Assembly (NCBI GenBank): GCA_025174535.1 | Contig: JALBUN010000032.1 | Coordinates: 112,415-176,414, forward strand | Direction: 5' to 3' | Length of the DNA: 64,000 nucleotides | From: Cantharellus purpuraceus | Taxonomy: Eukaryota > Basidiomycota > Agaricomycetes > Cantharellales > Hydnaceae | Shown: piece by piece, positions 3,913 through 53,542 of the stretch | Layout: each line of letters begins with the position of its first letter | Position numbering within the stretch: the stretch's first letter is position 1 | Notes under the pieces: generated by a model | Databases searched by the model: none | Told to the model about the DNA's origin: nothing | The model's input: only the letters and a program-made list of their open reading frames with translations | Made by a program: the position numbers and the translations under genes

Positions 3913-4156
3913 TGTAAGTATCCCTTACTTACTATAGTATATAATTATAATTAATGTATGCAGCATTCCATTAAGGAATGCTATCTTCTTGGTAACTATA
4001 TGTGCCCATAGGGTGCATATGTATAGTTATTATGTAAGCCAGTGGACCCAAGTACATGTGTGGGTCCACATATAGTAGACAGACACACTGTACAGCACAT
4101 CACACAACCAATATACTTGGTTGAGTTCTGTGTAACAGTGTGAACACCAATTTACA
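3913..4156 (+). repeat. LTR of hairpin-rich element H1
   Basis: It begins TGTAAGTA and ends TTTACA, about 244 bp. The solo LTR at 53270-53542 is homologous along its length. Within it are perfect stems: AGCATTCC/GGAATGCT, GTGGACCCA/TGGGTCCAC and AACCAA/TTGGTT. Confidence 0.75.
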
Positions 4157-4517
4157 CTTTCTTGAACTTCCAAAGGAAGAATCAATTGATTCTTCCTCAT
4201 TATTGAAGTTTCTAGTCAATACTAGAAAACTGGCTGTTGCTGGTGTACAGATGTATACCAACCCCCCAGTTGCTCATATAAGTGAGCAACTAGTAGACTA
4301 ACTTAGTTAGTCTACAAAGATAGAAGAAAGAAAGGAGTCATCATAATGATGACTTGCAGTGGAGTGAGTCATGCCCAGGACATCATAAATGATGAATGGT
4401 GGTGCATAGCCAGCAGCAGAAGGGGAGCTAGACCCTAGAGAAGTTGTAGGGACTTCTCATAAGGAGGACTTTAGGAGAGAGTCATCGCGGTTGTGAGACC
4501 ACACAGACAATTGCACA

Positions 4518-5271
4518 ATGGATCATCTGTTGAACAGGAACCCCTCATTGAGTGGTTCTCTGATTAGAGAAGAAAGGAGGAGACAGTCATTAACTGCCTC
4601 CAATGTTCCTAAAGGAAAGGAATGTGCTCAATATATGAGCACAAGTAGAAGTAGCAATACTTCTACTGGGGAATCACACAGCATGGAGCAGTGTGAAACC
4701 CACAGGTCAATTGTGAGATTGACCAAACAACTCATGTGTAATCAACATGAGATGAAGAGCATTAGCAAAGCTAGTGCTCAGGCAGCCAAGATGGCTGCCA
4801 AAGCAGGACATGCTGCCACTACTATGAGGCAGCAAATTGCAGAGCTAGGAACAATGTTAAAATCACTCCAAGAGAATTCTGAGCAATGCAGGTCACATCA
4901 CCAAAGATCAGATTCTCAATGAGAATCTGAATCTGGAGAGTCTGGATCTCCCCAGGGTGAGAGGATCCAACCAAATGATTGGTTGGACAGAGGAAATGAG
5001 ATTCCCTCAATGGAGGGAATCAGAGACCCAGTAATCCCTGTAAGGCAAGGATTACTGATCCAGATTGAGGAGGAAACTCCTCAATCTATGGCAAAGGAGC
5101 TCAATCAAGAGATTGAGCTATGGAAATAATGAGAAGTTGAGGCTTCTTGTAAACACAGATTAGACCTTGAATGGAAGGTTAAACATGCAGAGCAGGAGCT
5201 TGGCCAGCTGTTTAGAGAGCAGCAGCCCCAGCAAGAGCTCAATGTGGCTGTTGACTTAAACCAACAGTCGT
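4518..5271 (+). pseudogene. Gag-region coiled-coil protein of H1
   Basis: An ATG at 4518 opens a 134-codon frame (MDHLLNRNPSLSGSL...) that stops at TGA 4920-4922. The same frame then continues, interrupted only by a TAA-TGA pair near 5129 and a TGA near 5270. The translated protein is polar and rich in Gln, Glu and Lys, with a probable coiled coil in the second half (KHRLDLEWKVKHAEQELGQL). No zinc knuckle or protease is present. It probably corresponds to the region before the Gag core seen in H2. Hairpins run through the coding sequence, for example 4624-4630/4636-4642 and 4645-4653/4658-4666. Confidence 0.55.
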
Positions 5272-5597
5272 GACATGCGCTGAACAGTTATCAGCATGTA
5301 CAAGCAGTGGGCCTTTCAGGAGACACCTGTATGGAAACCACCTTTTCCCTATCAAATTCCATTTATGCAGCACCAATGTGCTATACTTTGCTTTTCCATT
5401 CCTAAATATCAGCATATATTTGATGCTTGTACCTGGAATGGACTTATTCAAATATTCCCTAATTTGTCATATTTTTTTGGGAATATTTCATGCAGAACTC
5501 AGCCCAGAATCATTTATTTCTGCTGTGCTACAGTTGTGGACCCATAGGCACCCACAAACCTTCACACAGCCGGCTCTCCCCCTTTGGACCAGGCATT

Positions 5598-6331
5598 TGT
5601 TATTTGGAAGACTGGACTTCTAGGGAACAGAGGGGGAACAGAGGGGATAGGAGGAATAGGAGCACATAGGAGGCTCAGGAGGTTGAGGGGGAGGTAGGAA
5701 AGCGAGGGGAAATGGTTAGGAGGGAAGAGGAGAAGCCCCTGTAAGCTCCACACACATCAGATCATTCTCCTATATTTCTTTTATATTTTATTTCATCATT
5801 TTTTCCCTATTGGCTCCACCCCCCATTTCGTTTTTATCACAAGTTTCTTTCCCATGTTTCAAATGACACAGAACTTTTATCACGAGTTATTAGCATGCAT
5901 ATCTTGTATAAAACACGCCTAGCTAGATATGCAATGGACTAGAGAATTTTACTCTCACTTGTTTTTGTTGACTGTGTCTGAACTATTCGTTTCTGGAATA
6001 ACTCCAGAACGAACGCATATTTCTACAATCTTTTGCATACTCTTCCAGAGTATTGCAACATATATTCGAATCCCAGTTTTCGAAGCCTAAGCTCCACTGG
6101 TTGATTTTCTATTAAGCATTTACTCTCGTTCAAGTCATCTGCTCCTGATCCCTGCTTAAATTGTCAATATCTAGACGAAGATCACACCAAATCCCATCAA
6201 ACTTCGTAGGAAGATACTACTCAAGTATATCTTCAATTCGACTACGCATACATCCAGCTCCCATCACTCCCTCTGTCTCTATTCGAAATCTACTCTCCAC
6301 ACACCCCCAGCAAGGCGAAATTTTTTCAACA
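5598..6331 (-). repeat. Solo LTR, family T, copy 1
   Basis: It reads TGTTATTTGG to TTTTTTCAACA (734 bp) and is flanked by the direct 5-bp repeat GCATT at 5593-5597 and 6332-6336. Three relatives lie at 6884-7629, 8883-9649 and 12536-13282. No internal element sequence adjoins it, so it is a solo LTR left by recombination. The minus sign here only marks orientation relative to the copy at 6884-7629; the transcriptional direction is not known. Confidence 0.9.
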
Positions 6332-6336
6332 GCATT

Positions 6337-6883
6337 CAGCCTGAATTCAAGCTCAGATGTCTCTGATCAATAAATATTCTCTAACTTGACAACCACAGCC
6401 TCTGAGGGCACTATTTTCCATGGAGATCATCACCTGAGATGTGGCTATCCATGGCTGTCCAAACCAGTGCAGAAAACAGGGTAGACATCTTTCTTTTTGC
6501 CTGATCAGTGCCTAGTTCAGGGATCAGATCAGCTGATGGGTGATCAGATCAGGTGATTGCCTTGGAATATTCTACCCCTTTCCATAACATTCTCGCTGTT
6601 TCCTTCTATTATTAGATAGAACATTCCAGAACCATTATTCAGCTCCTGATCAGTGTTAGTCCAGTAATCAGAACCTGTGATTGGCTTGGAATATTCTACC
6701 CCTTTCTTCCACCTTCCACAACTTTCCAGTAGTTTCCATCTATTAATAGGTAGAATATTCCAGAAGCATTAGTCAGCTCCTGTAAATACAATATATAAGG
6801 AGGTCATTCTGCCTCTGAAATAGCAACATATTCTACCACTTCTACCCATCTTCTGCACACCAGTGTGACTAGAGTGACATACA
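6337..6883. repeat. LTR-like spacer with a two-copy tandem repeat
   Basis: No gene is visible. Two imperfect copies of a unit of about 120 bp, at roughly 6541-6665 and 6670-6781, share GGAATATTCTACCCCTTTC and ATTCCAGAA. A TATA-like AATATATAAGG lies near 6792. The stretch could be an older LTR, but its ends are not defined. Confidence 0.45.
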
Positions 6884-7629
6884 TGTTGAAAAAAAATTTT
6901 GCCTTGCTGGGGGTGTGTGGAGAGTAGATTTCAAATAGAGACAGAGGGAGTGATGGCAACTGGATGTATGCATAGTCGAATTGAAGATATACTTGAGTAG
7001 TATCTTCCTACGAAGTCTGATGAGATCTGGTGTGATCTTCGTCTAGATATTGACAATTTGAGCAGGGATCAGGAGCAGATGACTCGAACGAGAGTAAATG
7101 CTTAATAGAACATCAACAAGTGGAGCTTAGGCTTCACAAACTGGGATTCAAATATATGTTGCAATACTCTGGAAGAGTATGCAAAAGATTGTAGAAATAC
7201 GCGTTTGTTCTGGTGTTATTCCAGAAACAAATAGTTCAGACACAGTCAACAAAAACAGGTGAGAGCAAATTCTCTGGTCTATTGCATATCTAGCTAGGCA
7301 TGTTTTATACAAGATATGCATGCTAATAACTCGTGATAAAAGTTCTGTGTTATGTGAATAAAGGGAAAGTGATTTATGATAAAAAGAATGGGGGGGTGAT
7401 GTCAAATAGGAAAAAATGACGAAATAAATCAAAAGAAAAATTAGGGTGAATGTTCAAATCATTGTGGAGCTTACAGGGACTCCTCCTTTCCCCTCTCAGT
7501 CATTTCCCCTTGTCTCCTTTTCCCCTTGTCTCCTTCAAGCTCCTGAGCCTCCTATATGCTCCTATCCCTCCTATCCCCTCTGTTCCTCCCTCTCCTTTTC
7601 TCCCCAGAAGTTTGGTCTTCCAAATAACA
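6884..7629 (+). repeat. Solo LTR, family T, copy 2
   Basis: It reads TGTTGAAAAA to CCAAATAACA (746 bp), in reverse orientation to the copy at 5598-6331. It is flanked by the direct repeat ATACA at 6879-6883 and 7630-7634. The pair of opposite solo LTRs makes a long inverted repeat that could be mistaken for a foldback element; the separate target duplications show two insertions. Confidence 0.9.
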
Positions 7630-7634
7630 ATACA

Positions 7635-8124
7635 GTGTCATCCTCTATCTCAGTAACTGTTGATTACCAGTTCAAGGATCTTTTACAGTTGTATAACTGT
7701 GCTTGATTGCACTCAAAGTAGTGATATTCCTGCTTTGGGCATGAGTGTAGTATCTGCCTCACGTGACTACAAATCTACAGGGTGAGATTGTCTGTCGATA
7801 GTCCTGCCATTAGTGCTCTTGTTTAAGTTACTAGTGTGTACTGCCTTTGCAGAGCATTAGAAGCTTGAACTCATGTGAAGCAGTTGCTAGACTACTTTAC
7901 ACATCGCTGTTACCCGCTTCTGAGTGCCACTGGTTGGACGGTTGGATTCATCCACCTACTTCCTTTAGCCTCTAAGTGCATTCCCCTCTTTTTGGAATAT
8001 CTGGACCCCTAAGCGTCCATGAACTCTAGACTCTGGAAGTCTTATTCATTTCTTGCTGCTAAGAAACATATTACCTTTCTGCATATAGTCTGCATTGACC
8101 AATACAAAGGATTGTAACCAAAGT
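7635..8124. other. Gap without recognisable gene
   Basis: AT-rich sequence between a solo LTR and an element fragment. I find no coding, repeat or RNA signal here. Confidence 0.4.
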
Positions 8125-8251
8125 ACAAATGTTAAATCATTTCTGGAGTTGTGCTGCAGCAGGGTTTGATATTCTTCTCAGCTGTTCATTCACGGAATTG
8201 TGGTAATTTAGAGTTTGCCCTAACACCATAATTTTGCGGGTTCCAACACCC
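8125..8251 (+). repeat. Direct repeat before the H2 gag, copy 1
   Basis: About 125 bp (from GTTAAATCATTTCTGGAG to TTTTGCGGGTTCC) recur at 10495-10611. Copy 1 precedes a gag start region, while copy 2 sits between gag and a pol remnant. The repeat may be an LTR end or a recombination scar. Confidence 0.7.
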
Positions 8252-8738
8252 ACCATGAGCAACAAGATACCCAATGGGTACCTCAAGAAGATGTTCCCAT
8301 AACAGGGAACAATCAGTGCCATTGACCCTAGAGGTTCAAGGCATACCAGATCAATTGGATACAATTGATCCTATCAATGGCATTGCTCGCATGGTGCGAG
8401 TAGCCATAGTCAATAATAGAGATACAGACCCAGAGAAGTCTGTACTTGCCAAGGCAGGCATTAAGGTATCACCTCCTGAGCAATACACAGGAGGTGTGGA
8501 TCTCAAAGAGTTCAAGATTGTTGTAGCCGGCATGCTACAATGGCTGAAGATGAATAATCTTCTAGGGCCATCAAGTACAAAGTTTCAACTATTGTACTTA
8601 GGCACTCGCCTTAAAGGCAAGGCCCAGGAATGGTTCTACAGGAATGTAGAACACTATGACAGGGCAGTCCAAGACTGGACCCTGGAAACTGCAATCCAAG
8701 GATTGCAGCATAGATTCCCAAAGTCTGGGTTGTGGTGA
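8252..8738 (+). pseudogene. Gypsy-type Gag core, part 1 (element H2)
   Basis: After an early frameshift the frame reads a Gag-like core: VSPPEQYTGG, then LKEFKIVVAGMLQWL, LLYLGTRLKGKAQEWFYRNV and LETAIQGLQHRF. This order (PPEPYxG, single-helix core, LxGxAQxW) is typical of Ty3/gypsy capsid proteins of mushrooms. The frame is lost after QHRF. The continuation is found at 10008-10494, repeating about 40 bp. Nearly every 25-40 bases contain a perfect stem-loop, such as GATCAATTG/CAATTGATC and CTGCAATCC/GGATTGCAG. Confidence 0.75.
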
Positions 8739-8882
8739 CCAAAACTGTTGGAAATATGTAAGAAAGGCTTGCTGTTGTAGCTCCTACACCTGCATAGATT
8801 GTGGACATGTCTCAGATTGACTGTTTGACAACTGCTGGGGATTTCTGATCCTTTGCATGCACCAATTATCACGAGTTGGAAC

Positions 8883-9649
8883 TGTTATTTAAATAATGTA
8901 AATAATTGCTTTGCTGGAGTATAGTGACGAGCAGAAGTCGAATAGAAAGTGGAGCAGTGGTGGGAACTGGATGTATGCGTAGTCGAATTGAAGATATACT
9001 TGAGTAGTATCTTCCTACGAAATTTGATGGGATTTGGTGTGATCTTCGTCTAGATATTGACAATTTGAGCAGGGATCAGGAGCAGATGACTCGAACGAGA
9101 GTAAATGCTTAATAGAAAAATAGCCAGTTATTGTATGGCTTCGTAATTCGAGATTCGAGTTGGATATGCAATATTCTAATAGAATATGCAAAAGCTAATA
9201 GAAATACGCGTTCGTTCTGGAGATATTCTAGATATGAATAGATTCAGACACACAGACAGAAACAGGTGAGAGGAAATTCTCTAGTCTATTCAAGTGCATT
9301 ACAGATGTGATTTATATATGATACTAAGTCCTATGAATGAGTGAAGTCATTCATAAATGTCCTGAGTCAATGATGGGATGGATGATGAGATGATGATGGG
9401 GGGAAGTGTCCATGATGATGAAATGATGAAAATAAAAGCAAAAATAATGTCCAGGAAGTTCTGGAACTCACAGGGGCTTCTCCTGTTCCCTATTCCATTT
9501 CTGTAACCGTCCTCCTTTACCCCCTTTGTCCCTCAAAACCTCCTGAGCCTCCTATATGCTCCTGTTCCCCCCCTGTCCCCTGTAATCCCCCTCTCCTCTC
9601 CCTTCTCCCCAGAAGTCTGGCAGCTAGACGTCCAGCAGCTGGAACAACA
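8883..9649 (+). repeat. Solo LTR, family T, copy 3
   Basis: It reads TGTTATTTAAATAATG to GGAACAACA (767 bp), flanked by the direct repeat GGAAC at 8878-8882 and 9650-9654. It is in the same orientation as the copy at 6884-7629. Confidence 0.9.
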
Positions 9650-9786
9650 GGAACAATTAAGCCACATGGCAATGTAGGTGAGCTGATTAGCAGATGATGT
9701 CCTCTCGGCATGCAGGTACCATTGTTCAGGTTTAGCAGTTGTACAGGTCTTTCTTTGATGCATTGCAAATTCCTCCAAGCCTTTCT

Positions 9787-9793
9787 GCTATAA
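9787..9793 (+). promoter_or_regulatory. TATA box before a small ORF
   Basis: TATAAAA lies 60 bases before the ATG at 9853, a usual core-promoter spacing, and supports the small secreted-protein reading. Confidence 0.4.
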
Positions 9794-9852
9794 AAGAGAC
9801 TCACCGCAATCCCATGGAGTAACTCACCAGAGGAAAGCCCAACCATACTACA

Positions 9853-9942
9853 ATGTGCTCTTTCACTACTCTCTTCTTTGCTGCCATTATGTGTGCAGCC
9901 ACCTTTGTGAATGCTGCACCACTTGGTAAAGTGAATCCTTGA
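9853..9942 (+). pseudogene. Small secreted-protein-like ORF, probably truncated
   Basis: The ATG starts a 29-residue frame. Its first 21 residues form a good signal peptide: hydrophobic LFFAAIMCAATF, then a VNA-A cleavage-like site. The frame ends in TGA. It stays open beyond, apart from a second TGA, until the duplicated gag sequence at 10008. Both stops could come from CGA by C-to-T change. No family is recognised. It could be the remains of a short secreted protein or a chance reading. Confidence 0.35.
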
Positions 9943-10007
9943 GGCAATCTGAACACTAATTCATCAGTTATACATGTTAGACCTTGAACGCCGTCAAACT
10001 GCCACTG

Positions 10008-10494
10008 CAGTAGACCCTGGAAACTGCAATCCAAGGATTTCAGCATAGATTCCTACACAACCTGATGCATCATCATGTGTAAAATAAATTTGACTCTGTA
10101 ACACAGGGTCAAAGGACCGTTCATGAATTAATGAATGATCTAGATTAGTATGTGGGCCATATGATAATGCCACTGGATGCATACACATACAGGAAGAGGT
10201 TTGTAACTGCAATGTGTGAACCTCTGAGACAAGAAGCCCTCAAGAAGGGCTTCAATGCTGAGTTTAGCAGTATCAAGCAGTTGTATGAAACTGCTCAAAT
10301 GATAGAGGAAGCAATGTGATACCACCATGGTATGTGACACCTGGAGAACACAACTAACGTGTCTTCCTCAACCCATAGACCAGTAGTCAATAGAACTACT
10401 GGTATGATGAATGCAGGGAGTCAACCCATGCCCCATGGACATGTATACGGCTCCCAATACCCACTCACAACAAGCGAGTGTGCCAAGGCCAGAA
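10008..10494 (+). pseudogene. Gypsy-type Gag, part 2 (element H2)
   Basis: It resumes at LETAIQGFQHRFLHN and continues through QGQRTVHELMNDLD, TYRKRFVTAMCEPLRQEALK and QLYETAQMIEEAM, as in gypsy Gag C-terminal halves. Four stops (TAA, TAG, TGA, TGA) interrupt the frame. No zinc knuckle follows, because sequence switches to the 10495 repeat. Stems such as GAAGCCCT/AGGGCTTC and CCAGTAGT/ACTACTGG continue the hairpin pattern. Confidence 0.7.
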
Positions 10495-10611
10495 CAAATG
10501 TTAAATTGTTTCTGGAGTTGTGCTGCAGTAGGATTTGATATTCTTCTCAGCTGTTCATTCATGGAATTGTGGTGATTTAGAGTTTGCCCTAACACCATAA
10601 TTTTGCGGGTT
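10495..10611 (+). repeat. Direct repeat, copy 2
   Basis: This is the second copy of 8125-8251. It joins the H2 gag to an unrelated gypsy pol remnant. Confidence 0.7.
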
Positions 10612-12347
10612 CCAAAACACTGGCAACATTACCTCAAAGGATCTCCAACTCCAGTTGATGTCATCACAGACCACAAGAACCTTGAATACTTTTCAACTAC
10701 TAAACTCCTTACTAGGTGGCAAGCCTGCTGGTCTGAATTCCTGTCCCAGTTTAATCTGGTAATCTGTTTTCATCCTGGCAAACTCGGCACAAAACCAGAC
10801 TCGTTAACTAGACAATGGGATGTCTATCCTAAAGAGGGAGGAAATGATTATGCAGCAGTAAATCCACATAATCTTAGGCCTGTGTTCACTAACAAACAGT
10901 TAACTGCTTCCCTCCAAGCAACAATGTTCTATTCTCCAGTCCTCTGAGCAGCCATCACTATGGATGTTGATACACTCCACTCCAATATCTGATCTGCACT
11001 CTGATCAGATCCAGCCAGCTTTGGACATCTCATTAAACTGACCAATTGCTGGTCCATTGACCTGGAAGGCTTACTCCATCTTGACAACCACATTTACGTT
11101 CCCATATAGAACTAGTCAGGCGGGACTATGTCTGGCCTGAACTCCATAGTTCCATTAAGTCCTACATCAAGTCTTGTACCACTTGTATGCACTCAAAGTC
11201 ACAGAGACATTGTCCTTATGGACTACTCAAGCAACTCCCCATTCCAGAGAGTCTGTGGAACTCCATATCCATGGATTTCATTGAGAAGCTCCCAGCATCC
11301 TCCGGTTGTGACACCATCTTAGTTATTGTGGATTGCCTTACCAAGCAGTCCATTTTTATTCCTACGATTGATACCACCACAGCTCCTATACTTGCAAAAC
11401 TATTTGTGCTCCATGTCTTTTCCAAGCATGGAGTTCCATCACACATTACCTCTGACTGTGGCATGGAGTTCATGTCCTCCTTTTTCTGAACCCTTGGAAA
11501 AGCTTTGGATATCAAACTCCATTTCACCTCTGGATACCACCTGGAAGCTGATGGACAAACCAAATGAATGAACCAGACCCTAGAACAGTACCTCCAAGGC
11601 TACTGCAACTACCAACAGGACAACTGGTCTGACTTACTTCCACTTACAGAATTCGCATATAATAATGCTCCGAATGCCACTACTAGCTTATCTCCATTCT
11701 TTGCCAACAAAGGTTATCACCCAAACATCTCTGTCCACCCCAAATGAGACCTCACTTCTTCAAGAGCTCAAAACTTCACTGTGGACCTCCATGAACTCCA
11801 TCAGCATCTCTGAAAAACCATCTCTGATGCTTAACTCTGATACTGCATCTCTGCTGACCATTGCTGATCTCTGGCCCCAGACTTCAAGGTTGGAGACAAG
11901 GTTTTTGTCAAATCTGACAATATCCATACACCAAGACCTTCCAAGAAACTATTGGAAAAATACCTTGGTCCTTTTGAAATCATCGCTCAAGCAGGCTCTA
12001 ATTCCTTTACCCTCCATCTACAAGAAAGCATGCGCTCCATTCACCCCATCTTCCACATTTCCATGCTCAAACCCTCAACTCCAGATCCATTCTCCAGTCA
12101 AGAACCAACTCCAGTCCCTCCTGTCATCATAGATGGAGAACCAGAGTATGAGATATCAGAGATCCTGGACTCCAAGATCGACAAGAGATGAAAATGTAAA
12201 CTGCAATACCTTGTCAAGTGGGCAGGATACAAAGGAACAGATGAAGAAACTTCCTGGCTACCAGCTTCAGAATTAGGACATGTGACAGAGATTATCTCTG
12301 ATTTCCACCAGGTCTACCCTCATAAACCTGGCCCCACTTTGCTTTGA
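10612..12347 (+). pseudogene. Gypsy pol remnant: RNase H, integrase, chromodomain
   Basis: The 3' half of a pol gene is present. It shows an RNase H end ([21 protein letters not shown]), an integrase core (WNSISMDFIEKL; FSKHGVPSHITSD; NQTLEQYLQGYCNYQQDNW) and an SH3-like GPFEIIAQAGSNSFTLHL. A chromodomain follows, with YEISEILDSKI, LQYLVKWAGYKGTDEETSW. Several stops and frameshifts and an internal deletion before the integrase zinc region make it dead. It is the same lineage as L2-A and L2-B. It has no LTR of its own; the LTR at 12536 has independent target duplications. Confidence 0.9.
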
Positions 12348-12535
12348 TTCACTCCAGTTTATCCAAGAAACTCAGTCATTTACTAGTCATCATCACATTC
12401 TCTAGATACATCACTTCTCCTCTGTCTCCAATTCTCCTACTCCTGACTCCTCTGATTCCCCATCCACTGTTCCCTCCTTCTCCAGATTCTCTGATCCCAA
12501 CTCCTGCTCCCTGAGCATCCAATCTATCTCCTCCC

Positions 12536-13282
12536 TGTTGTTCCAGCTGCTGGACGTCTAGCTGCCAGACTTCTGGGGAGAAAGGAGAGGAGAGGGGGAT
12601 TAGAGGGGACAGGGGAGGAACAGGAGCATATAGGAGGCTCAGGAGGTTTGGAGGGGCAAAGGGGGTAAAGGAGGATGGTTACAGGAATGGAATAGGGAAC
12701 AGGAGAAGCCCCTGTGAGTTCCAGAACTTCCTGGACATTATTTCACTTTTATTTCCATCATTTCATCATCATGGACACCCCCCCCCCATCATCATCTCAT
12801 CATCCATCCCATCATTGACTCAGGACATTCATGAATGACTTCATTCATTCATAGGACTTAGTATCATATATAAATCACATCTGTAATGCACTTGAAACGT
12901 AAGAGAATTTCCTCTCACTTGTTTCTGTCTGTGTGTCTGAATCTATTCGTATCTGGAATATCTCCAGAAAGAACGTGTATTTCTATTAGAATATTGCATA
13001 TCCCAGTTGAATCTCGAATTACGAAGCCATACAATCACTGGCTATTTTTTGTATTAAGCATTTACTCTTGTTCGAGTCATCTGCTCCTGATCCCTGCTCA
13101 AATTGTCAATATCTAGATGAAGACTACACCAAATCCCATCAAACTTCGTACAAGGATATTCCCAAGATATATCTCCAATTTGACTGCACATACATCGTGT
13201 TCCCACCACTGCTCCATTTTCTATTCGACTTCTGCTCATCACTACACCCCAGCAAGGCAATTTTTTACATTATTCAATAACA
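12536..13282 (-). repeat. Solo LTR, family T, copy 4
   Basis: It reads TGTTGTTCCAGC to CAATAACA (747 bp), flanked by the direct repeat CTCCC at 12531-12535 and 13283-13287, and lies in the orientation of the copy at 5598-6331. The target duplication shows it is not the 3' LTR of the pol remnant just before it. Confidence 0.9.
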
Positions 13283-13537
13283 CTCCCATGACCACCACCT
13301 CTCATCATCCAGCCTATTGAGATTCTCTGAAGAGTCCCAAGATCCTGAGGAGTTTGAGTCCATGTCATATACGGTGCCCAGAGCTTCCAACTCCAGTGCA
13401 TCCAACTCCTGTTGGAGTGGACCCCACCTCTGTCCCATCATATAATGATGGAACATATCTGCAAGCTCACACATATAGGTCTCAATGCCCTGGAGAGCCA
13501 CATTCATCCTTTCAGTGTGCTTGGAAACCTCAATCAA
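13274..13537 (-). pseudogene. Unidentified coding remnant
   Basis: A minus-strand frame encodes VSKHTERMNVALQGIETYMC, then PLQQELDALELEALG and a Ser/Asp-rich end. Its codon pattern looks like real protein. The frame continues upstream (to about 13620) as HKRTDTMQDVSINVAVVAH with one stop. The last codons overlap the end of the solo LTR at 13282, so that insertion truncated it. No domain is recognised. Confidence 0.35.
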
Positions 13538-13583
13538 TCAATGGGCCACCACAGCCACATTAATACTGACATCCTGCATGGTG

Positions 13584-16285: not shown

Positions 16286-16628
16286 TAGGGAGCAGTTCAC
16301 TGTTGTGCTACTCATGGTAGCACGAAAGGGATAAGCAATAATTAATTGCATTACACCCATGTGACATAGTCACTGGAAAAATTCTCAATAAAGAATTTTT
16401 GAGCTCAGCTGTAAAAGGCTAGCTGTGCTTCTTTGAACCACCACAACCCCCCTCCATCAAAATGTCATCTCCCAGAAGGGAGATGATGGATGCTCAAGAT
16501 GAGCATCCAATGGAAGTTGAACAAACTTCCACAGTGGCAGCACCTGCAATAACTGCTGCAGATATGATCAGAGGTCATCAAGATGAGATGACCTGGAAAA
16601 TTGGCAGATGGCATGGTGGTGCTGTCAT
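16286..16628 (+). mobile_element. Hairpin-rich element fragment H3
   Basis: It matches the minus strand of 50740-51065. It holds a leader with stems and the start of an ORF at 16462 (MSSPRREMMDAQDEHPMEVE) that is intact until the sequence switches to a HEAT exon near 16628. The stems at 16305-16311/16317-16323 and 16466-16473/16478-16485 differ from those of H4 by paired changes. Confidence 0.8.
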
Positions 16629-42356: not shown

Positions 42357-42409
42357 TCACCTCTCTCTTAATGCATGTCGTCTTGATATGCACTATCATC
42401 CCATCCATC

Positions 42410-42847: not shown

Positions 42848-42937
42848 GGTGGGTTGGGTAGTGAACAATGATGGTTTTACTGAGGAAGGGGAAGTGGATT
42901 CACTGGCTTATATACAGTTAGTGGAATTTCGGCATGG

Positions 42938-43459: not shown

Positions 43460-44199
43460 AGAGCATGCCCTGCCTGACAAACCAGTTTTCAGTTCTTGAA
43501 TCATGTACTGTAGGGCTCACAAGTGATATGTTACACGCACACTCCCTTGTCCATCAGACTGAAACCAAAACAGCCATGCCTGAAAACCCTTCTCAACTTC
43601 CAGCTAAACATGATGACCCTCCTCGTCTCTACCTTCGATCTGCAGACATCCGTCGATGTACAAGAATTTCCATGAAAATCCACTTGGTAGACACTGGATA
43701 CCCTCTAGCCGTGGATGCACTCCTCGATAGTGGTGCTACAGGAATGTTCATTGATGCAGAATATGTCAAAGCAGAGAAACTTCGAACACACCCTCTACCA
43801 TGTGCCATACCTGTTTATAACATTGATGGGACCCCAAATGAAGCAGGTTCAATCAAGGAAGAAGTCAATCTCATCTGCACATATGGGACCCATACCAAAC
43901 GTGCCACATTTTCAGTCACAAGCCTGGGAACCTTTGGCATAATTGTTGGGCACACCTGGCTTGTGAAGCACAACCCAGAGGTAGACTGGCATACAGGAAA
44001 GGTACAGATGACTCGCTGCCCTGATTCATGTGGAGAAGTACCAGAACACAAAGAGCATTCGCTTGGTACAACTCCTTCAAATGGCAAGAACTCACACAGG
44101 CAACCCCAATACGAGGGAGACCGAACATTTGTTATCTTTGTAGAGGAAGACTTGGAGAATATCTATGCTGGTTCAACAGTTTCTCAACGGCTCACATAG
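43456..44199 (+). CDS. G4 aspartic protease region
   Basis: It overlaps the end of gag by 4 bases. The active-site motif ALLDSGATGMFID is intact, with the usual GHTWLVKHNPEVDW region downstream (ILGxxWL-type). The frame ends at 44199, and reverse transcriptase lies in another frame from 44377. About 247 codons. Confidence 0.75.
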   Translation: MKSMPCLTNQFSVLESCTVGLTSDMLHAHSLVHQTETKTAMPENPSQLPAKHDDPPRLYLRSADIRRCTRISMKIHLVDTGYPLAVDALLDSGATGMFIDAEYVKAEKLRTHPLPCAIPVYNIDGTPNEAGSIKEEVNLICTYGTHTKRATFSVTSLGTFGIIVGHTWLVKHNPEVDWHTGKVQMTRCPDSCGEVPEHKEHSLGTTPSNGKNSHRQPQYEGDRTFVIFVEEDLENIYAGSTVSQRLT

Positions 44200-44376
44200 A
44201 AGGCTGCAGAATCTACTCCAGTCAAAACCTTTGAGGAGATTGTCCCAAAGGCGTACTGGGGATTTAAGGATGTTTTTGCAAAGGAGTCCTTTGACCAACT
44301 TCCACCTCAAAAACTGTGGGACCACGCTATTGAACTCACTCCAGGAGCGCAACCCTTCAGCACAAAGGTCTATCCA

Positions 44377-47181
44377 ATGTCCCCAAATGAGCAGAAGGAG
44401 TTGGACGCATTCCTTGAGGAGAACCTACGGAATCATCATATACATCCTTCCAAGTCACCCATGGCATCCCCTGTCTTTTTTGTGAAGAAGAAGGACGGTA
44501 ATCTTTGTTTTGTGCAAGACTACCGCAAGCTGAATGATATCACAATCAAGACCGCCTACCCACTACCCCTGGTATCAGACATCATGAATAAAATTGCCGC
44601 AGCCAATGCCAAGTACTTTACCAAGCTTGACATCCGATGGGGATATAACAATGTGCATATTAAAGAGGGCGATGAGTGGAAGGCAGCCTTTCGAACCAAT
44701 CGTGGTCTATTTGAACCCCTGGTCATGTTCTTTGGTCTCACAAACAGCCCAGCAACCTTTCAGACGATGATGAATGGCATTTTCAAGGAGCTCATTGATG
44801 ATGGCACTATGGTAGTGTTCATGGACGACATCCTCATTTTCACTGAATCCCTAGAACAACACCACACGATCGTGCAATCTGTCCTTGAAATTCTTCAGGC
44901 CAACTACCTGTACCTCAAACCAGAGAAATGCCTTTTCTCACAACAGAAGGTAGATTATCTTGGATTGATTCTCTCACAGTGGTCCTGGATACCTGATGGC
45001 CCAGAACAAGAAGCCTTTGATAAACTCAAGCAGCTTGTCACGTCAACTCCAATCCTTGTCCTCCCAGATCAAACCAAGCATTTTCGACTAGAGACAGATG
45101 CTTCAGCATATGCAACAGGTGCTGTTCTATCTCAACTCTGTGACAATGAGAAATGGAGGCCAGTAGGTTTTGTATCCAAGAGCCTTTCAGATGCAGAGCG
45201 CAACTATGCCATCCATGATAAGGAATTGCTCTCAGTCATCCGTGGACTAGAAGAATGGCACCACATCTTGGAAGGGACCAAATACAAGATTGAAATCCTT
45301 AACAACCATCAAAACCTCACATATTTCCGTACAGCTCAGAATCTCAATCGTCGACAAGCTCGCTGGTCACTATACCTTTCTCGTTTTGACTTTGAACTGA
45401 TCCACCGTCCTGGACGACATTCAGCCAAACCTGATGCCCTCTCACGACGTGTAGATCATAAGTGGGGGGAGGAAGATAACCAGTACCAGGTTCTTCTTGG
45501 CCCTGAGCTGTTCCACATCGATGTGACATCCACCTATCCAGGGCCAGAAGCTCAAATGATCACAGGAGAAGGAGACATATTCCTGGAATGTGTGCAGAAC
45601 TGCACCAACAGAGATGAAAAGGTTGTAAAGGCTCTTAAGGAACTTGGTCCCTCTCAGAATTTACGAGGACAGGAATGGACCGAGGAGAATGGACTTGTCC
45701 TCTATCGTGGCAAGGTATATGTCCCTCTTGACCCAAAATTGCGCCATGACATTGTAAGGGCACACCACGATACTCACATTACAGGTCACCCTGGTCGCTG
45801 GAGAACAACAGAACTTGTATCCCGCAGCTACTGGTGGCCTGGATTTGGACGATACATTGCCAAATATGTCAAGGGATGTGACCTCTGCAATCGGACAAAA
45901 GCTTTCCCTGCTCCTCCTATGGGTAAACTCCTGCCTAATCGTGTCCCAGATCGGAGGTGGCAAGTAATATCTGTTGACCTTATTGTAGAGCTACCCATCA
46001 GCCATGGCTATGATGCACTCCTTGTCGTTGTGGACCGTCTTTCCAAATGAGCACATGTTATCCCTACCACCTCTGACATCAACTGCATAGGAGTTGCACG
46101 ACTTTTCTGAGACCATGTGTGGAAACACCACGGCCTTCCTGAGGAGATCATCAGTGACCATGGCACCCAGTTTGTCTCTCAATTTATGCACGAGCTCAAT
46201 AAGCTTTTAGGGATCAAGGTTGCAGCATCCACAGTATATCATCCACAAACCGATGGTCAGACGGAAAGGGTCAATCAAGAAATTGAACAATACTTGAGGC
46301 TTTTCGTCAATCAGCACCAGGATGACTGGATTGAGTGGGTTCCTCTTGCCAAATTCACATACAACAACCGCATCCACTCCTCCACGCAATCAACCCCCTT
46401 CATGCTTGATACAGGCCAACACCCAAGGCTTGGGCTAGAGCCAATCTGAGAGACACGACTTGAAGCACTGGAAGAATTCACTGAGCGTATGGAGACGGCC
46501 ACCACTGAGGCTCGCTCCACCCTGGAAAAGGCAGCAGATGATATGGCACGATTCTATGATGCCCATCGGCAAGCAGCCCCAGTATACAAACTTGGTGACA
46601 AGGTCTGGCTCAATGCACAAAATATCACCACCACCCGTCCAACCAAGAAACTTGATCACAAATGGTTAGGACCATATGTGATTAATAAGGTGGTCTCACG
46701 AAATGCCTATGGCCTACAACTTCCCCCAATCTTTGGCTGCACTCATCCAGTGTTCTCTGTTGTCTTACTCCATCCTTATGAAAAGGATCCCATCCCTGAA
46801 CGCCAGTCATCTCCTCCACCACCTCCAGTCATTTGAGATGGAGTACAGGAATACGAAGTTGAGAAGATCCTTGACAGCAGAGTTTTCCGAGGAAGACTGG
46901 AATACCTGGTGCGTTGGAAGGGCTATGGAGCTGCTGACGACCTCTGGATCCCAGCTAAGGATGCCAGTGGGGCTAGAAGGCGCATTGCAGACTTCCATCG
47001 GGAAAATCCTGAAGCCCCAAGGCGTATTTCAGCAGCCACCTATGTGGCTCTTCCCTTCAGATGCTTTGAGAACTTCACAGAACCTCCCAAACAGGTCCTC
47101 TTTGATTGGACAGCTGGCAGGAACCCAACACGTGGTATTGGACACATTTCAGAGCCGCAGAATAGGCACAGTGAAGCTTAG
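44377..47181 (+). pseudogene. G4 reverse transcriptase, RNase H, integrase, chromodomain
   Basis: The first open part (44377-46050) has reverse transcriptase (FFVKKKDGNLCFVQDYRKLN; FMDDILIF), a deletion in the thumb at LILSQWSWIPDG, RNase H (ETDASAYATGAVLSQL; HDKELLSVIRGLEEWH) and the integrase zinc region (HDTHITGHPG...CDLCNRTK). After TGA 46048 the integrase core continues (GLPEEIISDHGTQFVSQF; HPQTDGQTERVNQ). Then come the GPYVINKVVSRNAYGLQL part and a chromodomain ([20 protein letters not shown]). Four TGA stops (near 46048, 46108, 46447, 46834) break an otherwise open frame. Confidence 0.9.
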
Positions 47182-47287
47182 CACTCACCAAATTCATCCA
47201 TGCCGAAATTCCACTAACTGTATATAAGCCAGTGAATCCACTTCCCCTTCCTCAGTAAAACCATCATTGTTCACTACCCAACCCACC

Positions 47288-47725
47288 ATGCTTTACCAGT
47301 CTGAATCCACCCCTCTACACTCACTCCGTTCCTACCCATCAATCACTTGGTCAGTTGACTCAAGGGATACTGCACGTGCTGTAGAGGATTATAACCTCCC
47401 ATCTCCACCTCCACAAGTTCATTTCCCCTTCTGGCATCGTAATCCATCAAGACGCCAGACATACTACATCAGGGACCCTCTATTCATCGGCAACTATGAC
47501 ATACCATACGCCTTCCAAGGGCTCGCCGGTAAAGTCACCTATGAGGGAGGGGAGATGATACTTGGAGCAGTTTTCAGCACAAACGATCTCATATCCCCCA
47601 GAGAGTTCACCATCCCACTTTACCCCAAGGCAGAGAAGAGTCACCATCAACACTCATCATGGGCTCTACTTTGGCAGAGAGTGAGAAGGGACCTTGCAGA
47701 GTGCTTCAGGGTGTGTCTCTCTTGA
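47288..47725 (+). CDS. Second copy of the G4 accessory ORF, sense orientation
   Basis: Nearly identical to the ORF on the minus strand at 42410-42847 (two residue differences seen: Arg/His after STPL, Pro/Leu after STND). It lies in the inverted arm at the 3' end of the element. Upstream is CTGTATATAAGCC near 47218, about 70 bases before the ATG. Confidence 0.55.
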   Translation: MLYQSESTPLHSLRSYPSITWSVDSRDTARAVEDYNLPSPPPQVHFPFWHRNPSRRQTYYIRDPLFIGNYDIPYAFQGLAGKVTYEGGEMILGAVFSTNDLISPREFTIPLYPKAEKSHHQHSSWALLWQRVRRDLAECFRVCLS

Positions 47726-47778
47726 GATGGATGGGATGATAGTGCATATCAAGACGACATGCATTAAGAGAGAGGTGA

Positions 47779-47985
47779 TGTCAGGGTTCAAATAAGTCAT
47801 ATTCTATTTTTAGTATTTTCTCTTGACACCCCTATCAGCGCAGCCTGTCAGGGTGCATCTCCCCTATTTCATTGCCCCTATCACTTCCCCTATCCTTCCT
47901 CCCCTATCTTGGTTCTCCTATCCGTCTCCATCTTTTAGTATAAAGACTTGCCTTGGTGCAGTGTGATCCCCTCAGCTTGATCTTC
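47779..47985 (-). repeat. Inverted partial LTR inside G4
   Basis: It begins TGTCAGGGTTCAAATAAG and is the reverse complement of 42150-42356. Together with 47160-47778 it makes an inverted copy of the 5' LTR end, leader and accessory ORF (42150-42970). It ends exactly at the 3' LTR start. Confidence 0.9.
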
Positions 47986-48347
47986 TGTGAGGGCGACACT
48001 GATGATGAGGCCACAACAACAAGATACTCAATAAGTGAGAGCCGATAAGAAATAATGCCAGCTGGTACAGCGGATATCCTCAGTCTATACAGCTGTTTCT
48101 GATAAATACATGGGACTTACCTGGTACAGCAGATATCCTCAGAGATCAAGCTGAGGGGATCACACTGCACCAAGGCAAGTCTTTATACTAAATGATGGAG
48201 ATGGATAGGAGAACCAAGATAGGGGAGGAAGGATAGGGGAAGTGATAGGGGCAATGAAATAGGGGAGACGCACCCTGACAGGCTGCGCTGATAGGGGTGT
48301 CAGAAGAAAATACTAAAAATAGAATATGACTTATTTGAACCCTGACA
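47986..48347 (+). repeat. G4 3' LTR
   Basis: TGTGAGGGCGACACTG to GAACCCTGACA, 362 bp, same orientation as the 5' LTR with a few substitutions. Confidence 0.9.
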
Positions 48348-48885
48348 CGTCTCCATCGGACTCGGACATACTCATGTAAGGCCGTCAGCCTCGGAGACCC
48401 ATCACCGGAGTAATTATTATTAGATTTCAAATATGTATTTAAGTTGCCCGACTGGGGACTTCATTCCCCAGTTCAAATATCAAATCACGCCTAGTTCCTA
48501 AGTCCAATCCTAACTCTCTAAGTTGTACTCTGCCTCCAAAATCTCAGACACCAGTATTAGTGAGGGTGCAGCACATAAGCTGAAGCCAAGTCCGTTCTGA
48601 CCCCCACGACGTGCTCCGACTCCAACCCAACCTCCAACCCAACCTCCAACCTCCAACCTCCAACCTCCAACCCAACCTCCAACCTCCAACCCAACCTCCA
48701 ACCTCCAACCCAACCTCCAACCTCCAACCCAACCTCCAACCCAACCTCCAACCCAACCTCCAACCCAACCTCCAACCCAACCTCCAACCCAACCTCCAAC
48801 CCAACCTCCAACCCAACCTCCAACCCAACCTCCAACCCAACCTCCAACCCAATCTCCAACCCCCAATCGGACCCAGTGCGTAACA
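48348..48885 (+). repeat. L2 3' LTR (copy B), right part
   Basis: Continuation of 41802-41994 after the G4 insertion; ends CCCAGTGCGTAACA at 48885. It is longer than LTR A because of the expanded 12-bp repeat. Confidence 0.9.
48612..48866. repeat. 12-bp minisatellite (CAACCCAACCTC)n
   Basis: About 20 units of CAACCCAACCTC with 6-bp variants, inside LTR B. LTR A has about five diverged units at the same place (37430-37497), so the array expanded after the LTRs separated. It produces long repetitive open frames on both strands that should not be taken as genes. Confidence 0.95.
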
Positions 48886-48936
48886 GTACTTACACTCTCT
48901 CCTTTTTGAATGAGGCACGATCTCATTCAGTACCTT

Positions 48937-50887
48937 TCAATCATACAGCTTCTTATGAAGCTGTTCCAATGAGTCGGTATCCATATGGTTATCTTGTTCA
49001 TATGGCTCTGGAGGGGGATGGCTCTCAGTCATCCCTGACATGGTTGCAGTATCCTCATCCACTTGAATGGATGAGGAGGATGCAATTGCTACTGCAGCAT
49101 CCTGATCAAGTTCACAATTAAGTTGATTGTGACCTAAATGCTCAGCAAGAGAGTGTTTAGCAGCTTTATGAGCTGCTTGGGAGACTCCCTGAGTCTCCTG
49201 CTTCCGCTTACCAACCCTGGCAGGCTGGTTATATGCTGCTCTGGAGGCGATGCATTTAGCAAACTCCTCTAATATAGCCACACGATTGGGGGTGATGCCT
49301 CCCAATTGTCCAAACCAGAGCACAAGCTCTAATTCAGTATGTTCTTTGGGGGAGCAATTCCCCCAATCATACGCTCCAGTGACTGAAGTGTGAAAGGTGT
49401 CACCAAGAGTTGGTGAGAACTTTTGACCATTGGTCAATAATCCCCAGTGGCCAGGATTCTGGAACATAGTCCAGAGATTCTTCTTAAATACAGAAGAACC
49501 CTTCTTGGGAGTTGCCTTTTGTAGCCACATCCAGACATCGACATCAGACAAGTTCATAGTACCATCCAACTCCTGTTGGATGGCCAGGGAAACCCCATTA
49601 GGGTTTACCTGCCACCCCTGTATGAGGGCAAGTGTGTCTACCAGTGTGGTCAGTAGAGTGATGATAAGACTTGTGTTATCAGCACAAGCCAGTAGAGTCA
49701 TTCTCTTGATGACTCTGCGCATCGGTACAGTCCGTTCCACAAATGGTGTGGCCAATGCCTTTTTATGGAGCGATATGAACTCCGGAGTGTCCATATCGCA
49801 GATGTCAAACCAATCCACCCTGATAGGGGTGGACTTGCCCAGAGGTCGCGGCAGGTGGCCAGTGACTGCTCTGGGGGGGTCAGCCGCAGTCATGAACCAT
49901 GGTGCCCATTTGGGGAATGATTTCCCCATATTGGCATGCTTGAGAGCATGCCCAAAATCATCCCAGCATTTGTGATAATTTGTATGCTAGGCTTCCTCTA
50001 GCATCTTCAACACTGGGTCTTTTAATGTACAGGTGGCATCACCAGCCATATATTCCTTTCAAAGCTGATCAATCTCAGCTTTGATTTCTGATAGGGCAAA
50101 CTCTTTGAGTTGGCCTGGTTGCTTAGCACCCTTGGGGATGCTAGCCAGGAGGAGGCCATGATTGTGGTCATATCCCTCCCAGATTGGGTCAGTGTCATCC
50201 CAATCTTGACCCTTGAACCCACAAGGATCGATCTGAGGCAATTGCTTGGGCGACCATCCTCCTCTTTGGTGAGATCAATCGTTTCCCATGATGATGAAGC
50301 CATGGGCTGTGATGGCATAATGGCAGGCAATGATTTGCCTGTGATAGCATGCAATAGTGGTGCTACTGGGGCCAAGTGCACCGTTGTGAGCTTGGTCTTG
50401 AATGTAGGAGGTGCTCTATTAGCAGCCTCCTTCAGTGTTTTTAACTCATCTCTGAGACAAGTTACTTTGGACTTCTCATTGTCAAGAAGTCCTTTGAGTT
50501 CTTGGACCTGTGCAAACAGGTCCAAGTTATCCTTGTACATCTTATTGTAGTCTTCACAATAAGGTGTCACAATGTCATCTTTGATGTTGCATATAAGTTG
50601 GCCATGCAACTCTTAATGCTCTTTCCACCAAAGTGGTGGAAAGGTATAGTTGGCCCCCATTTTGGGCCTCAATTAAGTGTGACACATATGCGTTGCACTT
50701 GTTGCACCTGTGAGGGTGGGATGGCAGCGCCACCATGCCATCTGCTGATTTTCCAGGTCATCTCATCTTGATGACCCCTGATCATATCTGCAGCACTTGT
50801 TACCGGTGCTGCTGCTGTGGAAGTTTGTTCAAATTCCATTGGATGCTCATCCTGAGCATCCATCATCTCTCTTCTGAGAGATGACAT
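48937..50887 (-). pseudogene. Third ORF region of H4, downstream of pol
   Basis: It starts at 50887 (MSSLRREMMDAQDEHPMEFE) and, through frameshifts or introns, continues as a coiled coil (DLFAQVQELKGLLDNEKSKV, 50609 on). It then reads FKGQDWDDTDPIWEGYDHNH and a well-preserved 330-codon part from 49929 (KSFPKWAPWFMTAADPPRAV; FKKNLWTMFQNPGHWGLLTN; GAYDWGNCSPKEHTELELVL). The last ends with an acidic, Ser-rich tail at 48937. No domain is recognised. It lies where envelope-type third ORFs lie in some gypsy elements, but has no signal peptide or membrane segment. H3 carries its 5' end. Confidence 0.5.
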
Positions 50888-51029
50888 TTTGATGTGGAGG
50901 GGGGGGGTTGTAGTGGTTTGAAGAAACACTGCTAGCCTTTTATGGCTGAGCTCAAAAATTCTTTGTTGAGAATTTTTCTAGTGACTATGTCACATGAGTG
51001 TAACACAATTAATTATCGCTTACCCCTTT

Positions 51030-51432
51030 CATGCTACTATGAGTAGCATGACAGTGACTGCTCCCTATGGGAGCAGTTTTTTCTACCATCGAGCTGCCTA
51101 TTGTTATGGTAGCTCTATCCTTATCTAGGAACTACCATTTAATCAAGGTAGTTCCTCCTCCCCTCTTTGAGCTACTGTCATTGATGGTAGCTCTTTGTCA
51201 CATCCCGCTAGGAGCTACCTTTATTCTTGGTAGCTCCACTTCCCCCCTTTGAGCCCCATTAGATCTTTGGGGCTCTGTCTCTCTGAGAACTACCGTCTCT
51301 GAGGTAGTTCTCATGCTTGAGTCACCCCTTGAAGTTCTAAATAATCATCTAGAGCTTCTAGGTCCTTACATGACATGTAAGGTTCCTAGGTGACGTCTCC
51401 CAACATTCATAGAACTTGAAATTCAAGTTCTT
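51030..51432. repeat. Run of consecutive perfect stem-loops
   Basis: At least ten hairpins in 400 bases: 51030-51050, 51058-51076, 51091-51115, 51127-51156, 51169-51193, 51211-51237, 51251-51275, 51285-51312, 51331-51358, 51364-51382 and a near-palindrome at 51412-51432. Stems are 7-10 bp, many with the core GAGCTACC/GGTAGCTC or GAACTACC/GGTAGTTC. No open frame spans it. Confidence 0.85.
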
Positions 51433-51657
51433 TATTGCTTATCCATCGATGAGTGATGATTTTATCGACAAGCCACTCCTGCTTGTCATCATTCCCAAAG
51501 TTGTAAAATGACTTCACTTCCTGTTTTGGGAATCTCACCTCATCATTCAGCACATATGGTCAAATGAGGCTGACGTGGAACATAGGTGTAATGCACCTAC
51601 TAGTCAGTTCTGGTGGCAGTTCCAGTGTCACTGTTGAAGCTTTATTATGGGCTTCGA

Positions 51658-53223
51658 TTATTTTATAGGGCCGATATACCTGGGCACTAGTTTGCTGGTT
51701 CTACCCTTAGGTACAATCAAGTTTTTCATTGAGAGGTAGACTTTGTCACCTCTCTGGAAGGTTGGGCCTTCCTGACATTTCTTATTGGCATGAAACATCT
51801 GAACAACGTGACTTTCTATAATCATGTCATGCACTGCTAGCAGGTTCATTTGAGCCTGCTGTGTGAATCATTTGACACCCTTGAACTTGGTGTCATTGTT
51901 AATGGGCATGCCTATTCTAGGCATATACCTGTGGTTAAGCTCAAATAGAGTAAACCCCATTGTTGAGCTTATGTTGGAGTTTAGCGCAAACTCCACCATT
52001 GGACACTTGTGTGCCCAATCCTTCTGATCACTTTGTACAATGGTATGAAGTATTTGGCCAATGGAACAATTCACTTGTTCTGTCGCTCCATCCATTTGCA
52101 GATGGAATGCTGTGGACATGAGAAGTTTCACTTTCATTATCCACTATAGTTCATGCCAAAAGATAGATGTGAATTTCAAATCTCAACCAGACATGATCAA
52201 GTCTGGTACACCATGAAGGCGTATAACTTCTTTAAGGAATAGCCATGCTACTCCTTTCACTGTTACATGTGTGTTCATAGGTATTATATGTACCTGCGAT
52301 GTGAAGCGATCTATGTCTACCAGTAGGTAGTCATAGTCATTCAATTTTAGTAATGGACCCATAAAATCCATACCTATTGATTGCCAGGGCTGCTCTGGTA
52401 CTGGCAAGCTATGAAGAAGCCCTATGGGTTTCTTCATACTGTCTTTATTCATTTGGCACTTCATGCACAAAGTACAGAATGATTCGACATCAGTGGTCAT
52501 GCTTGACCACCAGTACGACCATCGAATGTAATTCATGGTTTTTAGTTGACCAAAATGGCCAACTACTTGGTGTGCATGGTCAATTATTATCTCAACCAGC
52601 CTCCTCCCCTTCAGGAATGCTGAGTGGGGTATACAGACGACATCGCATTTGTATATATTTTTGGTCCATATTAGACCATCATGCACACCAAATTGTGTGT
52701 GTTCTTTAGGTGCTTTCAGCACCTTAGAAAGGACAGTATCCTTTCTATATGTACCTCATACAATCTGCACAAGGTTGATCCCATGCTTAACATGGGATTG
52801 CAATGGTGTTCCATCATCATCTGATGACATCACTCCAACATCCTCTATTTCTTTAGAGGAATTAGAATCATCATTCAATGATTCTGTTTGAATATTGAGT
52901 GCTTCAGCTTCTAGCACTCTGTTTTCTTTTTTCTCAAGCAGTCACCTTCAGGTGACTGCTGCTGTTCTGATCTTGACAAACCGTTCTGTGGGGAGCAGTT
53001 CTCCTTCAGGGTCGAGACATTCATCTGCATTTACATAGATGTAGTTGGGATGACTCTCTGTTGGGGAGTCATTGGCATAGTAGCATGGGTAAACCCTGTC
53101 ATGACAGCACAGGAACCCACCAGGTGGGGAGATTACAATGGGAGCAAACATCCATATGGTGAGCTCCCTCAAGGGTGGCCAGAAACCACCAGTCTCCATG
53201 TGATTGAAACAATGAATATTCAA
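51658..53223 (-). pseudogene. Pol C-terminal half of H4
   Basis: The minus-strand frame begins with the linker after RNase H (VNADECLDPEGELLPTERFV) and an acidic spacer. The integrase zinc region follows (IIDHAHQVVGHFGQLKTMNY, then CTLCMKCQ), the core (WQSIGMDFMGPLLKL; LHGVPDLIMS) and TAFHLQMDGATEQVN. It ends in GDKVYLSMKNL...LVPRYIGP. Three frames are involved and no chromodomain is seen. Reverse transcriptase is missing, so the element is defective. Confidence 0.8.
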
Positions 53224-53269
53224 TCTAACAGAGCTAACAAAGAAACTATGTATTCACAACTTATAGCTG

Positions 53270-53542
53270 TGTAAGCACCCTAGGTACATACTTGCTATAG
53301 AGTAGTATATATTAATATTAGTATATACAGCATTCCCTTAAGGAGCGCTGCTTTTATTGATAGATATATGCACCCATAGGGTGCATATGTACAGTTATTA
53401 TATAATCAAGTGGACCCAAATATATGTGTGGGTCCACGTGTAGTTAGAGTAACTTAGATTTTACCACACTGCTGTTGCACATAGCATAACCAATATATCT
53501 TGGTTGAGTTCTGTGTTGGTGTGAACTAAGTCTAACCTTACA
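53270..53542 (+). repeat. Solo LTR of the hairpin-rich family
   Basis: TGTAAGCACC to AACCTTACA, 273 bp, flanked by the direct repeat AGCTG at 53265-53269 and 53543-53547. Homologous to 3913-4156. It has ATGCACCC-ATA-GGGTGCAT and GTGGACCCA/TGGGTCCAC stems. Confidence 0.9.

Follow-up and report, generated by a model that had tools for sequence, protein, structure and literature searches.

Dense perfect hairpins in the recovered modules of a Ty3/Gypsy-like retrotransposon family of Cantharellus purpuraceus, and their possible origin by arm copying

Structure of the element

A 64,000-nucleotide stretch of Cantharellus purpuraceus DNA (contig JALBUN010000032.1, positions 112,415 to 176,414 of the forward strand), referred to here as the window, contains fragments (H1 to H4) and a long terminal repeat (LTR) of a retrotransposon family in which short perfect inverted repeats, or hairpins, are dense (Table 1). 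As judged from its sequence, this is a decayed, high-copy, Ty3/Gypsy-like LTR retrotransposon family. Its reverse transcriptase is missing from the recovered sequence; an upstream piece (L061), fetched in search of this enzyme, was other sequence. Candidate copies in the 40.15-Mb genome, given in Table 1 for gag, LTR and the third open reading frame (ORF3), numbered 202 for pol, and 40 of each were scored; among the matches listed, nearly all copies were 80-95% identical to the window.

Table 1. Features of the family in the window
Feature	Position	Strand	Remarks
H1 LTR, hairpin-rich	3913..4144	+	77% to LTR module; aligns with ten other LTR copies
H1 leader and N-terminal gag region	4145..5270	+	40 scored of 190 candidate copies
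H2 capsid region, first part	8252..8738	+	Ty3_capsid E 0.0016
H2 capsid region, second part	10008..10494	+	about 1.3 kb of other sequence separates it from the first part
H3 spacer end and ORF3 start	16286..16628	+	matches spacer 272-439 and ORF3 7-182
H4 ORF3 region	48886..50900	-	40 scored of 269 candidates; 14 homologues
Example ORF3 hairpin	49692..49718	-	arms encode RRVI and MTLL
H4 non-coding spacer, run of related CTACC-core hairpins	50901..51340	-	15.2 hairpins/kb over all copies
H4 pol 3' part	51341..53087	-	Integrase_H2C2 E 1.5e-16 within 52186-52755; RNase H end 52987-53085
177 bases between pol and inverted LTR	53088..53264	-	covered in 2 of 40 scored copies (window, C38)
Family LTR, inverted relative to H4	53270..53542	+	40 scored of 420 candidates

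The order of the modules was evident from other copies. On one strand of locus L056, RNase H, integrase, spacer, ORF3 and LTR followed one another, RNase H also lay upstream of integrase on one strand in L041 and L048, and the RNase H frame of L058 continued into the beginning of the pol module. The order LTR, gag N part and capsid was noted in L054, where the first part of the capsid ran into the second without a gap. LTRs in the same orientation as the coding modules were thus seen next to gag (L054) and next to ORF3 (L056), and no examined copy had direct LTRs at both ends. The Ty3_capsid match was weak (18.3 bits, against a Pfam cut-off of 29.1). The zinc-binding Cys and His columns of the integrase (HHCC) were invariant in 18 sequences. 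In H1, the gag frame (4518-5126) has an in-frame stop after 4919. Open frames in the ORF3 region occupy 48937-49983 and 50025-50612, and no Pfam match was obtained for the main one. About 41 bases of capsid sequence occur on both sides of the split in H2 (8679-8718 and 10013-10053), which is long for a target-site duplication. A CCAACCT-type satellite (48601-48880) lies directly beside the truncated end of H4.

The LTR at 53270-53542, described as solo in an earlier note made from this DNA alone, in fact adjoins H4 in inverted orientation, as do the LTRs at L039 and L058. At these three loci (window 53087-53542, L039 8177-8516 and L058 1-851), a 5'-truncated pol adjoins an LTR of opposite orientation, with different points of truncation, perhaps as a result of self-integration or of a preferred rearrangement. 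On genome contig C38 (69334-70632), LTR and pol matches were 100% identical to the window junction, which identifies a duplicated segment; similarly, identical runs of coordinates and scores on contigs C37, C35 and C1 near 3.86 Mb point to large duplicated segments.

Hairpin density and folding energy

Hairpins, defined as perfect inverted repeats with arms of at least 7 bases and loops of 3-12 bases, were counted in each stretch and in 20 dinucleotide shuffles of it. There were 22 in the 1,358 bases of H1 (16.2/kb), 8 in H2 8252-8738 (16.4/kb), 3 in H2 10008-10494 (6.2/kb), 6 in H3 (17.5/kb), 56 in the 4,379 bases of H4 (12.8/kb) and 3 in the LTR at 53270-53542 (11.0/kb), compared with mean values of 0.5-1.3/kb for shuffles of the same stretches. 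Bins of 1 kb elsewhere in the window, without family sequence, held 0-4 hairpins. By a broader definition (arms of at least 6 bases, loops of at most 25), arms and loops together took up 44-50% of H1, H3, H4 and the first piece of H2, and 34% of the LTR. For the window and all fetched loci, in totals that count overlapping loci more than once, 1,903 hairpins were found in 153,591 bases of family sequence (12.4/kb) as opposed to 317 in 209,782 bases of other sequence (1.5/kb), an excess of about 8-fold over the other DNA examined. Eight other loci of the genome, picked by reverse transcriptase (L001-L008), did not reach the density of the family; they contained 0-4 hairpins per 500 bases, the densest two bins being in L002 and L004. 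Over all copies, densities per kb were 14.4 for the LTR, 13.1 for the gag N part, 13.4 and 8.2 for the two parts of the capsid, 12.3 for RNase H, 10.5 for pol, 15.2 for the spacer and 12.5 for ORF3. These findings confirm that the hairpin excess is real and extends to all recovered modules, i.e., LTR, gag, RNase H, integrase, spacer and ORF3.

The dense perfect inverted repeats reported in the earlier note for H1 to H4 and the LTR were therefore recovered by direct count, as was their presence in LTR, gag, the pol half and ORF3, but their strength was not uniform, the second H2 piece being clearly weaker. Nor did the spacing of 25-40 bases given there hold, as the median centre-to-centre distance in the window was 52 bases (quartiles 35 and 78) for arms of at least 7 bases. 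Arms in the window were 7-12 bases long and loops mostly 3-7.

Folding energies agreed with these counts. Thus, mean RNAfold z-scores per 300 bases (plus/minus strand) were -7.8/-7.4 for H1, -6.9/-6.1 and -6.3/-3.6 for the first and second H2 pieces, -7.2/-6.4 for H3, -4.7/-4.8 for H4 and -6.7/-3.7 for the LTR, extreme values on both strands (-3.6 to -7.8), whereas the mean for 14 control stretches was near zero (+0.2/-0.3; individual values -3.8 to +3.2). Within the family, folding was weakest at 50100-50400, with -1.9 on both strands. Along the family sequence, folding energy was far below that of dinucleotide shuffles, as in genome-scale ordered RNA structure.

Coding constraint and conservation in homologues

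The effect of the hairpins on coding sequence was evident from 13 coding segments (6,603 nt, several of them the same genes in different copies), in which loops of 1-12 bases were counted. These segments contained 84 hairpins, as opposed to 8.6 after synonymous shuffles, so that few survived when the protein sequence was kept, and 4.7 after shuffles of codon order. In six control frames totalling 7,191 nt, one or more of which belong to another retroelement, 7 hairpins were found compared with 3.6 and 3.5. Reading-frame classes of the hairpins were nearly equal (27, 33 and 24), although in one class two-thirds of the pairs join first and second codon positions and could hardly be made by synonymous choice. 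The near-equality of classes, together with the loss of hairpins on synonymous shuffling, indicates that the hairpins shape the protein and have overridden codon structure.

Homologues of ORF3 numbered 14 (52-65% identity, all of JGI source, on contigs of 0.9-3.4 kb) and those of the integrase piece 124 (41-79% identity among the 120 listed), and the next Gypsy elements in the genome were 24.6-29% identical in RNase H; DNA of the relatives was not found in viral-contig or genome-contig collections. The homologues examined were the full 14 of ORF3 and 113 of the 120 listed for integrase; at hairpins where both paired codon positions must have changed from all bases that the family shows, it was noted whether Watson-Crick pairing remained possible. 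It did so in 24 of 38 distinct events for ORF3 and 43 of 65 for integrase, together 67 of 103 (0.65), whereas 40 codon-shifted controls gave a mean of 0.414 (sd 0.063, highest 0.521). In the clearest case, the example hairpin of Table 1, which contributes many of the raw events of this test, homologues have RVAI/MATQ and similar residues that still allow pairing. From these compatible double changes, deduced from protein sequences, the hairpins seem older than Cantharellus purpuraceus. A degenerate back-translation test of whole proteins, which was of low power, gave a z of 2.0 for ORF3, mixed results for homologues and 2.9 to 4.1 for one control.

Codons in arms were less conserved than the rest (0.483 compared with 0.576 in ORF3 and 0.544 compared with 0.600 in integrase). 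This difference is expected if arms have been overwritten, but the hairpins may simply sit in tolerant places.

Decay of inserted copies and inversion of loops

Of 481 paired columns compared among 15 distinct copies, 57 showed more than one Watson-Crick type, many of them neighbouring columns in which CG faces CG. For 38 such pairs of facing CpGs in 31 copies, both sides had decayed in 200 cells, compared with 195 expected (sd 7.7), and the Mantel-Haenszel odds ratio was 1.08; arms therefore decay independently, and the apparent strong covariation among the genome's own copies was rejected as CpG decay. Single changes at 311 non-CpG pairs numbered 376, comprising 166 A-C, 108 G-U and 102 other mismatches. 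Since arms decay independently and facing CpGs are common to the copies, the hairpins were perfect before the amplification burst and nothing maintains them after insertion. The hairpins thus predate amplification of the family. Nearly every inner stop in the genome's RVT_1 matches was TGA, the stop expected from CpG decay at CGA codons. In the spacer, the hairpin layout of which was compared in six other copies, two CTACC-core hairpins of L017 look fused, as by deletion between like arms.

Only loop variants with at least two transversions were counted as candidate inversions, and apparent inversions of the ACATGTGT/ACACATGT type were set aside because CpG decay of a palindrome also gives them. 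Loops were observed 2,927 times at 143 hairpins. In 31 cases the loop differed from the commonest one by at least two transversions, and in 21 of these, at 7 hairpins with loops of 3-4 bases, it was the reverse complement of the commonest loop. Since the loops concerned are ATA and AAA, 17 of the 21 also fit plain complementation; the other four, at four hairpins, fit inversion alone (GAA/TTC, CTT/AAG, CTCA/TGAG and GGGT/ACCC). One further inversion (CAA/TTG) was noted in the LTR of L041. Inversions per detectable loop copies were 19/368 for loops of 3 bases, 2/335 for 4 bases, 0/42 for 2 bases and 0/1,606 for 5-10 bases. On trees built without the hairpin, most branches of which were weak, 8 LTR rows with the inverted state required 7 changes, and sets of 5 and 3 rows required 5 and 3, counts like those for shuffled labels, while well-supported branches alone force 2, 3 and 2. 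Loop inversions are apparently recurrent. In yeast genes, template switching homogenises arms and inverts spacers, recurrently and at arms longer than 9 bp, with ten spacer inversions reported (PMC8604942). As the same type of event is known there, the inversions are probably due to host replication acting on hairpins already present, and because they look late and belong to single copies, they are no proof that the hairpins arose by switching.

Origin of the hairpins

Conserved mismatches within helices of six modules were 11 G-U, 7 A-C and 4 other, and under other rules those of the ORF3 region were 5 G-U, 3 A-C and 16 other. G-U pairs were rare and not clearly commoner than A-C, with little sign of RNA wobble, which weighs against selection at the RNA level, as this should favour G-U more clearly. 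We favour instead the building of the hairpins by snap-back template switching that copied arms, probably in reverse transcription, a reading to which we give just short of an even chance. A second source holds that template switching can both create and maintain hairpins (PMC8794818). When a growing strand met a near-inverted repeat, its end would fold back and copy the first arm instead of the template, turning the second arm into an exact complement. Perfect arms would attract further switching, a mutational ratchet in the replicating lineage, and a mutation in one arm would be copied into the other, so that the hairpin would stay in place while both arms changed, even at amino-acid cost. 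Arm copying would account for stems that are perfect and contain few G-U pairs, for hairpins placed without regard to reading frame and in coding and non-coding sequence alike, and for arms that change jointly and are weakly conserved. Intramolecular switching, by the published distinction from the intermolecular kind, would copy arms without inverting loops, so that loops could keep a strand bias. Such switching would find its setting in reverse transcription of a single RNA template, and the confinement of the hairpins to one lineage among the elements examined makes this the likeliest place. Inserted copies receive no upkeep; CpGs in the two arms decay independently of each other, and loops of 3-4 bases would at times be inverted by host replication. 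The wider proposal, which we hold more tentatively and somewhat below an even chance, is of a lineage whose reverse transcription writes palindromes, so that genome and proteins would evolve as a concerted hairpin array for longer than a species exists.

Several observations count against arm copying. Loops on the sense strand were A-rich (0.42 compared with 0.32 outside); the A excess was greatest in the spacer (0.53), the capsid (0.47) and gag (0.45), small in ORF3 and absent from pol, while LTR loops were rich in A and T alike; G+C of arms was 0.468 compared with 0.442 outside and 0.397 in chance arms. Both results are more directly explained by selection. The sense strand had the lower z-score in 6 of 6 groups, by 0.1 to 3 units. 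Counted per hairpin, compatible changes in homologues did not exceed the highest control (ORF3, 0.683 compared with 0.385, highest control 0.730; integrase, 0.582 compared with 0.406, highest control 0.683). Only 6 double changes, 5 of them compatible, occurred at the 311 non-CpG pairs, so that arm copying was not seen in progress in the copies. The loop inversions, for their part, belong to the intermolecular type that host replication is known to produce, and there is no clear sign that they precede the insertions. Nor can a special property be shown for the family's reverse transcriptase, whose sequence is missing from the recovered modules.

Selection for compact, locally folded RNA or single-stranded cDNA, with short unpaired runs and with hairpins kept by compensatory change, is accordingly quite possible, if rather below an even chance; the benefit might be, for instance, concealment of the transcript from small RNAs, resistance to nucleases or help in packaging. 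The extreme folding scores, slightly lower on the sense strand, the base composition of loops and arms and the compatible double changes that speak for it, as for the selected RNA or cDNA structure proposed in the earlier note, are offset by the scarcity of G-U pairs, by frame classes that are equal although one demands amino-acid change, by weakly conserved arms, by antisense strands that fold nearly as well in H1 and H4, by pol loops without A excess and by the lack of special tetraloops (3 GNRA and no UNCG among 17). The alternative offered in that note, template switching that perfects quasi-palindromes, predicts the first three of these. Exact loop inversions show that switching does occur at these hairpins, but as apparently late, single-copy events they leave the origin of the hairpins unproven. 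Arm copying and selection may both have acted. Template switching during ordinary replication of inserted copies by the host is improbable as the maker of the hairpins. Exact single-copy loop inversions do match events in yeast genes (PMC8604942), but other DNA of the same genome is far poorer in hairpins (1.5 compared with 12.4/kb), arms of inserted copies decay independently, hairpins common to copies precede them and loops in the shared state are strand-biased. Expansion of the element out of short hairpin units, tandem or dispersed, as opposed to change in situ, is more improbable still: related CTACC-core hairpins do occur several in a row in the spacer, but the arm sequences listed for other parts vary between hairpins, which also lie inside the conserved integrase and RNase H frames. 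Chance or base composition is refuted, since dinucleotide, codon-order and synonymous shuffles all remove the signal.

If arm copying is the explanation, mutation of a type otherwise known from isolated cases has remodelled most of a mobile genome and prevailed over its codon structure, and the family would be a natural laboratory for the origin of hairpins and for covariation without selection, with a bearing on how far covariation can be taken to prove RNA function. If selection is the explanation, the family would represent an extreme strategy of ordered structure in an LTR retrotransposon. On either reading, stem-facing CpGs under fast CpG decay mimic compensatory change, and the abundance of copies allows the rate of loop inversion to be measured.

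Comparison with known systems

Full-text searches, outside which most subscription journals lie, found no title or abstract describing a hairpin-tiled retroelement. The family resembles Ty3/Gypsy elements (Metaviridae) in its terminal repeats, its weak likeness to the Ty3 capsid and the order of RNase H followed by an integrase with a zinc-binding domain, but differs from them in its dense perfect hairpins and in the additional ORF3, without Pfam match, after pol. Foldback and miniature inverted-repeat transposable elements likewise contain inverted repeats able to fold, but each has one terminal inverted repeat, whereas the family has many short independent hairpins inside genes. In RNA viruses with genome-scale ordered RNA structure, folding energy is far below that of shuffles over most of the genome, and the same was noted for the family, the hairpins of which are, in contrast, short, perfectly Watson-Crick paired, poor in G-U and present on both strands. 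Template-switch mutations between short inverted repeats (yeast genes, PMC8604942; RNA genes, PMC8794818) are like the family in having short, perfect arms, in inverting short spacers exactly, in recurring and in changing amino acids; they are isolated events, whereas the hairpins of the family extend along nearly all of its recovered sequence.

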